Positions 50,405 to 63,960 of a stretch of 64,000 bases of DNA are shown here, piece by piece (within the stretch, counting starts at the first letter, position 1; each line of letters starts with the position of its first letter). The stretch is from Desulfobacula sp. (lineage in GTDB: Bacteria; Desulfobacterota; Desulfobacteria; Desulfobacterales; Desulfobacteraceae): positions 1-64,000 of the forward strand of contig VMSR01000202.1 of the NCBI GenBank assembly GCA_013792075.1, read 5' to 3'. The notes beneath the pieces are model-generated. The model had not been told where the DNA came from. It was given only the letters and a program-made list of their open reading frames with translations, and made no database searches. The position numbers and the translations under genes were made by a program.

Positions 50405-50720
50405 CATTGGATATAAAATTTCCATGGGCAGGTTTTTGAATCCTGAAAGGCCATGCTTATAACGTGTAAATTCATTTTCTCAACTTTTTTTCCAACAACA
50501 AGATCTGGTATTTGAAAAATTTCAAAAATTGCGTTTCTTCTGAATACAAGTCATGACCATTGAGTTCTTCAAGCAATTACTGAAAAAATGGAATAGTTCC
50601 GGCATTCTGAATATCACGCTTAGGTTTGGTATTCTTAACAATTCAACGTTTCAAAACATCAAGGATAGGGATACTATACTTGAGTTGGGCCAACCGGCTC
50701 ATTAACCTTTTTATATCGTT

Positions 50721-50911
50721 TAATATGGAAACATGGCATGGGTTGAAGCCCACGGCTCATATAATGGAATTGAAATTTCATAACTGGAAAATATTAAGAT
50801 ACCATATATTGGGGTTCCTGAATTTTATCTGGACTGAGTCTTTAAAATGTCATTTATCGCTGTAGGTTTCCAGCCAAAACCCCATATAGATAGACAATAT
50901 AGTCGCTTTTT
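50721..50911 (+). repeat. Dispersed non-coding repeat, copy 1
   Basis: Colinear with copy 2 (62712-62840): TAATRTGG, GGCTCATATAAT (50754), TACCATATAT (50800) and a perfect 20-mer starting CTGGACTGAG (50829-50848) occur at the same spacing to within one base. The tail AAACCCCATA...ATAGACAA...TCGCTTTTT (50877-50911) matches copy 3 (63918-63953). No coding frame is shared, so this is a non-coding element. Confidence 0.75.
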
Positions 50912-51126
50912 TACTACCCAAGGAATTATTTCTTTTATGAGTATTTTATAAAAAAATGGCTTAACTGTGTGTCCATTATTCCTGGGGAATCAAATCATGG
51001 TAAACAATTCGGCCCAACCACTTTCAACTTAGACAAGTTCTTCCAAGTAAAACAACTCGGACAGGAGTTACCATGCTCATAACTTTCACAATTGGTTGAT
51101 CTGGTCAATAGACCTTCAGAATTCTA

Positions 51127-60359: not shown

Positions 60360-61079
60360 TTAACCCTTTTCCTCTGCTTTCATTTTTTTATACCAATCTT
60401 TATGGCCATAGAGTTCTTCTGTACAAAGCGGACATATACTGTGGCTGAAAGACGCCTCTGTTTTTTTTTCTATATAGGTTTCCATCATTTCCCAGTTTCC
60501 GCTGCTGTTTCGAATTTTTTTACAGCCGGAACATATGGGTAAAATGCCACGCAGTATTCTCATTTCATCGATAAATTCTGAAAGCGTTTTGTTTTTTTCT
60601 CCAAGAGCCGCATTCATATGGATGAGTTCGACATTGGACTGGATAACATCACGGAGGCTTTCCATCAGATCAATATGTTCCTTTGAAAAGTGATTTTCTT
60701 TATTATCCTGAACACAAATAGTACCAAAAGGTTGCTTATCTGGATATAGAATCGGCAGGCCCAAATAGGACACCATCTCTTTTTTAACGGTAAACGGCTG
60801 GTCCGATTTCGCATGATCCTCTGCATTTTCAACGATCAGCGGCGCTTTGGTTTTGATCACTCTTTCACAATATATGCCTGAGTTTAAAAAAGGTGTTCTT
60901 TCACCGGAGATATAGGGATTGTCTTTATTGGAGCTGGCGACAACAACTTCCAAGTCTTCCTTGTCAATTCTCATTATCATCGATGCTGGTATTCCCAATA
61001 AAGAACTTGCAAGATCAACAATTTTCTGCCACTTGAACAATATTTTTTCATGTATCTCAAGATTTATTGACGCTTCCAT
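60360..61079 (-). CDS. GAF-domain protein with C-terminal zinc-finger-like tail
   Basis: 239 residues. A GAF domain (about 12-155) with SMIMRIDKEDLEVVVASSN, YCERVIKTKAPLIVENA, and YLGLPILYPDKQPFGTICVQDN. A helix then leads to the tail GILPICSGCKKIRN...W..ME.YIEKKTEASFSHSICPLCTEELYG, with C-x2-C and C-x2-C pairs (about 182-185 and 217-220), a module often found behind PAS/GAF/receiver domains in sulfate reducers. It may sense a redox or small-molecule signal for the downstream usp-psiE-mrp genes. Confidence 0.82.
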   Translation of the reverse strand: MEASINLEIHEKILFKWQKIVDLASSLLGIPASMIMRIDKEDLEVVVASSNKDNPYISGERTPFLNSGIYCERVIKTKAPLIVENAEDHAKSDQPFTVKKEMVSYLGLPILYPDKQPFGTICVQDNKENHFSKEHIDLMESLRDVIQSNVELIHMNAALGEKNKTLSEFIDEMRILRGILPICSGCKKIRNSSGNWEMMETYIEKKTEASFSHSICPLCTEELYGHKDWYKKMKAEEKG

Positions 61080-61974: not shown

Positions 61975-62082
61975 ATGGAAATTAAAAGACCATTTACAGA
62001 TGAAGATTGGGCCGTAACTCCAGAACCAGTCCGGCAGTATATTGTCCAGCTGGAGGGAATAGTCATCAAGCTCATCAAGGAA
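61975..62082 (+). pseudogene. N-terminal fragment of an IS66-family transposase
   Basis: From ATG 61975 about 36 codons read [19 protein letters not shown] followed by [17 protein letters not shown], which matches the N-terminus of IS66 TnpC proteins (the [17 protein letters not shown] pattern). The match ends near 62082, where the next gene's sequence begins in another frame. No other part of an IS66 element was found. Confidence 0.65.
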
Positions 62083-62108
62083 TCCTTAGCAATAATGAAT
62101 CAGCAAAA

Positions 62109-62606
62109 GTGGCATATAAAAAATTTGGATTTTCCAGCTATATTATTGACGACGAGTACATATTAATTGCGGGAGAATTGAAAGAAAGAAATCTGATAAC
62201 AGTTTATGAGAGGTCGGGTGAACGTATTGAACCTAATGTTTTTCATCATATGCAAATTCAACTGCTTGTCAAAAGTGCTGAATTGAAAATTTTGGATATT
62301 CATGTGAAAATTCCAGGTGCTCCTCATGATGATATTTGCAGGGAAATGGAAAACAGTCTTGATAAAATAAAGGGGCTCACCATTGCGCCAGGATTCACTG
62401 CCAAAGTCAAAAAAATTGCAGGCGGTATAAAAGGATGTGCCCATTTGACAACTTTGCTTTTATCTATGGCACCAGCAGCACTTCAGGGATACTGGATATT
62501 CGAAGCACGTGAAGAACATAGAAGTGCAAATTCAATTCTTGATGTCGAAAAATATTTAGTGGATACCTGCTATGCATGGCGCAAAGACGGCCCGCTAACT
62601 ATATAA
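62109..62606 (+). CDS. DUF2889 family protein, 5' end probably lost
   Basis: About 165 residues from GTG 62109; the frame is open upstream to 62007, but that part overlaps the transposase fragment. Family features: [87 protein letters not shown], and [11 protein letters not shown] at the end. DUF2889 proteins are of unknown function. No ribosome-binding site is visible for the GTG, so the gene was probably truncated at its 5' end by the IS66-like insertion, and expression is doubtful. Confidence 0.7.
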
Positions 62607-62711
62607 GTGACGATTGTAAAATGGCGTTGTGGGTTTGACTTGTGAAATTGATATTTGTATGTTGAAGCTATAGAAAAAATTGTTGCTATGTTTTTTATAT
62701 ATTATAGAGAT

Positions 62712-62912
62712 TAATGTGGGAATATGCCCATCCATGTTGCCTTTGGCTCATATAATTGAGTGACAATGTTTATTCAAAAAAAATCTGGTATACCATATAT
62801 GAGGGATGCTCAAATTTTGGCTGGACTGAGTCTTTAAAATACCAGTTCACACTCCAGAAGACGTTCCAATTCTAAGCGATTATAGACATATGTGTCGCTC
62901 AATTCCTAATTC
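62712..62912 (+). repeat. Dispersed non-coding repeat, copy 2
   Basis: Shares with copy 1 (50721-50848) the blocks GGCTCATATAAT (62745), TACCATATAT (62791) and the 20-mer beginning CTGGACTGAG (62821-62840), at the same spacing to within one base. Beyond 62840 it continues with CCAGTTCACACTCC, resembling copy 3, and ATAGACATATGTGTCGCT (62883-62900), resembling the tails of copies 1 and 3. Confidence 0.72.
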
Positions 62913-63062
62913 AAAAATCTGCAAAAATAAGAACTTTTGTACTTTTGATTTTGAATACAAATTATCGCTACCGGATTTCGTGTGTCACTAAGCACTGGAA
63001 AACCAATTAACCGCATTTATAGCCTTGAGTTTTAAGGTTGTTATTGAGTTTTTCTTCACAGG

Positions 63063-63106
63063 CTCAAAAAAAAACGAGACAGGAAAAATTCAATCCTGTC
63101 TCGTTT
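63063..63106 (-). terminator. Strong leftward Rho-independent terminator
   Basis: Perfect 13-base stem AAACGAGACAGGA (63072-63084) / TCCTGTCTCGTTT (63094-63106), nine-base loop. Read leftward the stem is followed by nine T (complement of the A run 63066-63074). This is a textbook terminator for a transcript coming from the right, that is, through the 49-base repeat array. Confidence 0.85.
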
Positions 63107-63193
63107 ATATGTGTACAAAACTAAAGTCACTAAATATTACTAAAATTACTAATGATACTAAATAACCCTACTTTAAAAAATTTTCATTTACAT

Positions 63194-63472
63194 CAACTTC
63201 ATACTTCCATCTAAAACTTACTGCTACTTCCTACATCTACTTCAACTTCATACTTCCATCTAAAATTTACTGCTACTTCTTACATCTACTTCGACTTCGT
63301 ACTTCCATCTAAAACTTACTGCTACTTCTTACATCTACTTCAACTTCATACTTCCATCTAAAACTTACTGATACTTCTTACATCTACTGCAACTTCGTAC
63401 TTCCATCTAAAACATACTGCCTACTTCTTACATCAACTGCAACTTCATACTTCCATCTAAAACTTAATGCTA
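63194..63472. repeat. Six tandem copies of a 49-base repeat
   Basis: Units start at 63194, 63243, 63292, 63341, 63390 (50 bases) and 63440 (partial), each beginning CAACTTCATACTTCCATC with a few substitutions. The + strand carries about one G per unit; the leftward strand is therefore purine-rich and almost free of C. The period of 49 is not a multiple of three and stops occur in each frame, so it is not a protein repeat. There are no spacers between units, so it is not a CRISPR. Confidence 0.92.
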
Positions 63473-63510
63473 ACAACTTTCCTACTAACAAACTATAACT
63501 TTGAATATTA

Positions 63511-63538
63511 ATTATAGTTTTTATGAGAATTGATACAA
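63511..63538 (-). promoter_or_regulatory. Candidate leftward promoter before the 49-base repeat array
   Basis: On the - strand, TTGTAT (63538-63533), a 16-base spacer and TATAAT (63516-63511). The -10 box is perfect, the -35 partial. Start of transcription is expected near 63504, about 30 bases before the first repeat read leftward. Confidence 0.45.
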
Positions 63539-63748
63539 ATTTTTCTCATTTTTGGAAAAAATATACAAAAAATAACCAAAAGTCAAGTGCCTATATAAAA
63601 AAAAATAAAAAAATCGTAACTATTTGGTATAATACAATATTTATAAATTTGGCTTTACTTTTACGCCTCATACAACGTAAAATTTTGTAATTTGAGATGT
63701 TGCTGTTATTTGGAATCTTTGCTTTGGTGGACTTTTTGATGTGCAGAC

Positions 63749-63786
63749 ACAACTGGTTAACTTTTAAATGAAAGTTAACCAGTTGT
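63749..63786. repeat. Perfect 16-base-arm hairpin
   Basis: ACAACTGGTTAACTTT (63749-63764) and AAAGTTAACCAGTTGT (63771-63786) with a six-base loop. A second hairpin CCAATACCA / TGGTATTGG lies at 63837-63858. No poly-T tail. Could be element ends or operator sites. Confidence 0.75.
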
Positions 63787-63839
63787 ATCAAATGGGTCAG
63801 TAACAGGTACCATACCACCCCTAAAAAAACATATGACCA

Positions 63840-63960
63840 ATACCATATGTGGTATTGGCCTGTTTCAACTGAAGGCGACACTTTATTTTTCCAGTTCTCA
63901 CCACCGGAACCTGGTATAAAACCCCATAATGATAGACAAAATAATCGCTTTTTGAGTTTC
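63840..63960 (+). repeat. Dispersed non-coding repeat, copy 3
   Basis: Begins with TACCATATGT (63841), continues with CCAGTTCTCACCACCGGA (compare CCAGTTCACACTCC of copy 2) and ends with AAACCCCATAATGATAGACAA...TCGCTTTTT (63918-63953), which matches the tail of copy 1 (50877-50911) with few changes. It may continue beyond the window. Confidence 0.65.

Follow-up and report, generated by a model that had tools for sequence, protein, structure and literature searches.

A species-specific minisatellite that may have expanded inside a small leftward non-coding transcription unit in Desulfobacula sp.

An intergenic region of Desulfobacula sp. (assembly GCA_013792075.1, contig VMSR01000202.1) carries a tandem array of 49-base units that is nearly free of C on the - strand, holds no reading frame, is followed on that strand by a strong intrinsic terminator and has no detectable relatives. 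We favour, at about an even chance of being right, the reading that a species-specific minisatellite has grown within a short non-coding unit that is transcribed leftward. RNA polymerase would start upstream of the array, produce an unstructured, nearly C-free RNA and stop at the terminator, giving a unit of ~440 bases from about 63504 to 63066; transcription, start site and mode of origin are what we infer from the sequence. Coordinates refer to the window, the whole stretch of DNA analysed (positions 1-64,000 of the contig, forward strand), and genome-wide statistics are based on a sample of 1.08 of 5.3 Mb, comprising 80 stretches including the window, with ~1.5% masked. The features of the region are as follows, with the evidence in brackets.

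63533..63538, - strand: -35-like TTGTAT, 3 of 6 (sequence; not above chance in promoter scan)
63511..63516, - strand: -10-like TATAAT, spacer of 16 bases, RNA start expected near 63504 (sequence; a prediction)
63490..63520, no strand assigned: inverted repeat AAACTATAATT/AGTTATAGTTT, 10 of 11, over the -10 box (sequence; shuffle test)
63473..63500, - strand: leader with no C and four AGT (base counts, AGT counts)
63185..63472, - strand: 49-bp tandem array, 5.9 copies, unit GATGGAAGTATGAAGTTGAAGTAGATGTAAGAAGTAGCAGTAAGTTTTA (Tandem Repeats Finder and sequence)
63111..63184, - strand: tail with a TTAGTA-like period of 9-10 bases and six AGT (AGT counts)
63066..63105, - strand: intrinsic terminator with a 12-13-bp stem, 9-base loop and nine T (sequence and terminator scan against shuffles)
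63111..63476, + strand: C-rich, G-poor stretch with no predicted structure, a possible Rho-loading site (composition and MFE)

The tandem array

The six 49-base tandem repeats described in an initial annotation of this DNA were recovered by Tandem Repeats Finder at 63185-63472 (period 49, 5.9 copies, 91% matches), and their score of 476 is the highest of any tandem repeat in the 1.08-Mb sample. On the - strand, the six copies open with GATGGAAG at start-to-start spacings of 50, 49, 49, 49 and 49 bases, and the sixth decays after ~21 bases. A TACGAAG variant is common to copies 2 and 4 and not to adjacent ones, as expected of homogenising exchange. All six reading frames are full of stops, in agreement with the claim that the unit is non-coding, and non-coding tandem copies with variants common to several of them mark the array as a probable minisatellite. 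The best internal period of the 49-base unit is 13 bases (2 x ~6.5), with 29 of 49 positions matching (p ~0.0003). This nested ~6.5-base sub-repeat points to a minisatellite that would have grown stepwise, via replication slippage or unequal exchange: a ~6.5-base GAAGT-like seed would first have given the 49-base unit, of which six copies then arose. The short, strand-asymmetric tandem unit with a nested sub-period, found in one genome only, resembles bacterial intergenic minisatellites or VNTR, but differs from them in having a strong, oriented terminator and a C-poor leader and tail around it.

An oriented terminator without a protein gene to end

The earlier claim of a 13-base-stem terminator with nine U was borne out: a stem of 12-13 bp (63073-63105) with a 9-base loop is followed by a T run (63066-63074) on the - strand side only. 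It lies 80 bases from the array, in the orientation that fits the C-poor strand. Terminators with a stem of at least 12, at least 6 GC pairs and at least 7 T of 9 occur eight times in 1.08 Mb and not once in any of five local shuffles. A first scan had a loop limit of 8, which the array terminator exceeds, and it was therefore not listed there. Within a slightly looser set (n=17 in 1.08 Mb), 13 of the 17 terminators have a same-strand frame of 100 aa or longer in the 400 bases before them, whereas the array terminator has none, and it therefore ends something non-coding or is a relic. No recognisable - strand protein gene was found between the terminator and the + strand histidine kinase (start 64327), and Pfam, NCBIfam and PADLOC gave no match to the 96-aa frame at 63591-63881; the terminated thing is therefore most simply the array RNA. 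The terminator is the strongest evidence for transcription, and leftward synthesis of a non-coding RNA is the reading that fits best. Both its quality and the lack of a protein gene ended by it argue for the leftward non-coding unit that had been proposed.

Promoter, leader and tail

A TATAAT/TTGTAT promoter had also been proposed, of which only one half stood. TATAAT at 63511-63516 is a perfect -10, but the paired TTGTAT, at a 16-base spacer, matches at 3 of 6 positions, and the region, which is AT-rich, holds about as many promoter-like sites as its shuffles do (13 vs 11.6 +/- 3.5). The pair is itself absent from the list given by the promoter scan of the region. The candidate promoter is thus not better than chance and carries no weight as evidence. 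The AAACTATAATT/AGTTATAGTTT dyad over the -10 is a weak candidate for an operator or a 5' hairpin, and dyads of this type arise in 8.8% of shuffles. A second inverted repeat, ATGAGAA/TTCTCAT, surrounds the -35; such short dyads are common. Beyond the array, the short 9-10-base periodic repeat noted earlier is seen in the tail as a TTAGTA period (63111-63184), with AGT at offsets 25, 34, 43, 53 and 62.

Composition and folding of the predicted RNA

On the - strand the array contains 106 A, 85 T, 86 G and 11 C. The leader (63473-63500) has 0 C vs 8 G, and the tail (63111-63184) has 4 C vs 11 G, a borderline depletion. G and C are about equal outside the unit (20 G/19 C at 63521-63700; 22 G/21 C at 62950-63065); the depletion of C thus spans array and leader and ends outside the unit. 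One folding test gave z = -0.68, and a separate one gave the array -31.9 vs -34.3 +/- 3.5 in controls; neither indicates structure beyond composition, and the - strand shows, if anything, less folding than its controls. The description of the predicted RNA as nearly C-free and unstructured therefore holds.

Distribution and a repeat-rich neighbourhood

Within its own genome, the array occurs once. A BLASTN-type search of the unit, as had been suggested for Desulfobacterota, found no relative in 86 family, 389 order and 395 phylum genomes (own genome excepted), a result that relies on sequence similarity, so that a fast-evolving RNA with the same architecture in other letters would escape it. 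Exact 19-base matches in two Bacteroidota genomes were discarded, since no tandem array is present there. Phages gave no match, nor did two pattern scans of viral contigs, and plasmids gave no array relative apart from one low-complexity match to a heptamer microsatellite of a Vibrio plasmid. That plasmid, Vibrio harveyi pvh5, carries near-perfect TATGAAG heptamer arrays of 18 and 15 copies (L011:993-1117 and 2009-2115) that lie on either side of a MipZ/ParA-like gene with a small partner, and possibly form a plasmid partition site. A partition site or iteron was rejected for the array itself, as this sole plasmid match is a low-complexity similarity and no partition gene lies at the array. 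No close strain carrying the array locus was found among the 86 family and 389 order genomes; in the genus, the homologues of the signalling genes that flank the array are all distant, and an orthologous empty site can therefore not be read.

An interspersed non-coding repeat of ~200 bp flanks the array on both sides in the same direction (62687-62910 and 63840-63960), with a further copy at 50710-50923 and others elsewhere in the genome (L063:3194-3419, L064:3702-3930, L067:2189-2401, L068:3972-4196, L079:1419-1645). Its pattern is ..GGCTCATATAATTGAAT..ATATACCATATATTGGGGTTCCC..CTGGACTGAGTCTTTAAAATACCAGT..GAAACCCCATATAGATAGACA.., with subfamilies that differ in the middle part, and it occurs in 22 of 84 family genomes, often in several copies each (up to at least nine). 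It is not in Rfam. A pseudoknotted RNA was considered for it and rejected: over 30 copies, pairing of GGCTCA/TGAGTC (0.866 vs a shuffle mean of 0.862) and of GGGGTT/AACCCC (0.702 vs 0.697) showed no covariation, and it is therefore regarded as a DNA-level repeat. Small GAF proteins ending in CSGCKKIR (60363-61079 in the window; L063; L067) recur many times in the genus, and at two other places of this genome their genes are convergent to the interspersed repeat. Also present in the window are a near-perfect palindrome, ACAACTGGTTAACTTT..AAAGTTAACCAGTTGT (63746-63789), and a hairpin, GGCCAATACCA..TGGTATTGGTC (63835-63860), followed by T on the - strand. At 61975-62606, a 63-aa frame without a Pfam match overlaps the DUF2889 gene; its start resembles a transposase N-terminus, and we take it to be possibly an insertion-sequence remnant.

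That the intergenic region is so rich in repeats, with interspersed copies on both sides and the palindrome at 63746-63789, strengthens the case that the array arose neutrally. The array might then be a minisatellite with no relevant transcription, and the terminator a relic or the remainder of another lost gene, a reading that is considerably less probable than the favoured one yet deserves to be taken seriously. Its uniqueness to this genome, the higher-order repeat structure of the unit and the chance level of the promoter all fit such an origin. Less easily accommodated are a terminator of a quality never met in shuffles, oriented for the C-poor strand and only 80 bases away, and a leader that is likewise depleted of C.

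The + strand and Rho

Rho prefers loading on C-rich, G-poor, structureless RNA, and the + strand offers such RNA over more than 70 bases. The 370-base stretch of the array has 13 G and 102 C on this strand (skew -0.77), the most extreme G/C skew of the 1.08-Mb sample, and the MFE over 63185-63472 (288 bases) is -0.4 kcal/mol; of 800 stretches drawn at random from the genome, even the least folded has -33.7. Transcription continuing rightward out of the DUF2889 gene (62007-62606) would meet the array. The + strand RNA might thus serve as a Rho-loading (rut) array that stops read-through from this gene before the histidine-kinase operon at 64327, which we consider unlikely but keep among the serious alternatives. 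The lack of structure results from composition alone, as 44% of tandem shuffles (the unit shuffled, then repeated) are equally unstructured on the + strand. The likeness to rut sites lies in this C-rich, G-poor and unstructured RNA, but the array differs in being tandem and in having an oppositely oriented intrinsic terminator alongside; rut sites are not known to require tandem copies of 49 bases. The two next most G/C-skewed stretches of the sample (L042:5141-5510 and L116:8221-8590) are related to each other and are C-rich and G-poor, with CAAAACCC-like repeats beside small predicted genes.

GGA motifs and CsrA

Csr-family sRNA regulation has been described for many Gammaproteobacteria, and in organisms with FliW, CsrA is antagonised by this protein rather than by sRNA, with csrA and fliW side by side (review PMC7652899). 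Regularly spaced A-N-GGA motifs had suggested that the array RNA is a CsrA/Rsm sponge, and eight A(N)GGA sites are indeed present in the predicted RNA. The proposed check for csrA was positive: this genome has one csrA (C100:3073-3228), and its one fliW (C100:3378-3743) lies 150 bases further. The sponge reading did not survive comparison with controls. GGA is not enriched (7 vs 10.6 +/- 5.8 in tandem-shuffled controls, with 61% of shuffles reaching 7), so the A-N-GGA argument has no statistical weight, and the sites lie outside stable hairpins and hairpin loops. The once-per-repeat AUGGA of the AUGGAAG motif noted earlier reflects composition plus the copying of one unit. The array is like CsrB/RsmZ-type sponges in being non-coding, a few hundred bases long and endowed with several GGA; it differs from them in GGA counts that do not exceed chance, in their position outside hairpin loops and in a genome with csrA-fliW. 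By analogy with other FliW organisms, this pair would make a sponge RNA less needed, though still possible. A sponge is thus very improbable, while binding of CsrA to single-stranded GGA in the predicted RNA is possible.

The AGU comb

AGU occurs 31 times in the array vs 9.8 expected, a number reached by 0 of 300 controls, and 41 times in the whole predicted RNA. Against single-base shuffles, its excess also extends to the tail (6, p 0.002) and the leader (4, p 0.009), and vanishes there against dinucleotide shuffles. Since the comb reaches past the array, simple duplication of the array alone does not explain it. The excess beyond the array is a hint that the entire RNA is under selection and not simply drifting, a signal that is lost against dinucleotide shuffles, and the nested period of the unit may explain the comb without any function. 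A function of the array RNA seems unlikely. The likeliest one, if any, would be that of a multi-site decoy presenting regularly spaced single-stranded AGU to a putative RNA-binding partner, if there is one. A decoy RNA of a new type, ~440 bases long, nearly C-free and unstructured, with ~41 AGU mostly 4-13 bases apart that would titrate a putative AGU-binding protein, is in our view quite unlikely.

Comparison with type III antitoxins and other RNAs

In ToxIN, CptIN and TenpIN loci, repeats are followed by a terminator and then by the toxin gene (PMC5086642). The array, with its direct repeats before an intrinsic terminator, has the same layout, as in toxI-terminator-toxN, where the repeats stand upstream of a Rho-independent terminator (PMC5086642). 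It could accordingly be an orphan or decayed type III antitoxin, whose endoribonuclease gene has been lost or lies elsewhere. The likeness to ToxI, CptI and TenpI ends with this order of parts, as the array has neither a toxin gene downstream nor a repeat that would be expected to fold readily. The - strand contains no frame of at least 60 aa for 600 bases downstream, the neighbours include no NCBIfam, Pfam or PADLOC toxin, and a ToxN-family search of the genome gave no match, a weak negative given that controls gave no signal either. Moreover, known antitoxins fold as pseudoknots, whereas the C-poor 49-base unit has little pairing potential and no stable predicted fold. Membership was rejected on the missing downstream toxin gene; a trans-acting partner is possible, and descent from a type III antitoxin is altogether most improbable.

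Known RNA families gave no Rfam match at the gathering score in the window, and at a relaxed score the region gave three weak matches to animal families, which are attributed to chance. A retron or other reverse-transcriptase RNA was also rejected, as the larger frames next to the array, as far as the contig end, include no recognisable gene of this kind.

Significance

If the array is not transcribed, it serves as a caution: C-poor repeats automatically hold GGA and AUG, without frames or structure, and motif counts in such repeats therefore need composition-matched tandem controls. If it is transcribed, a lineage-specific repeat would have turned into a distinct non-coding RNA that carries its own terminator, and this would suggest one way in which regulatory RNAs built from repeats, for instance antitoxins or sponges, could arise.
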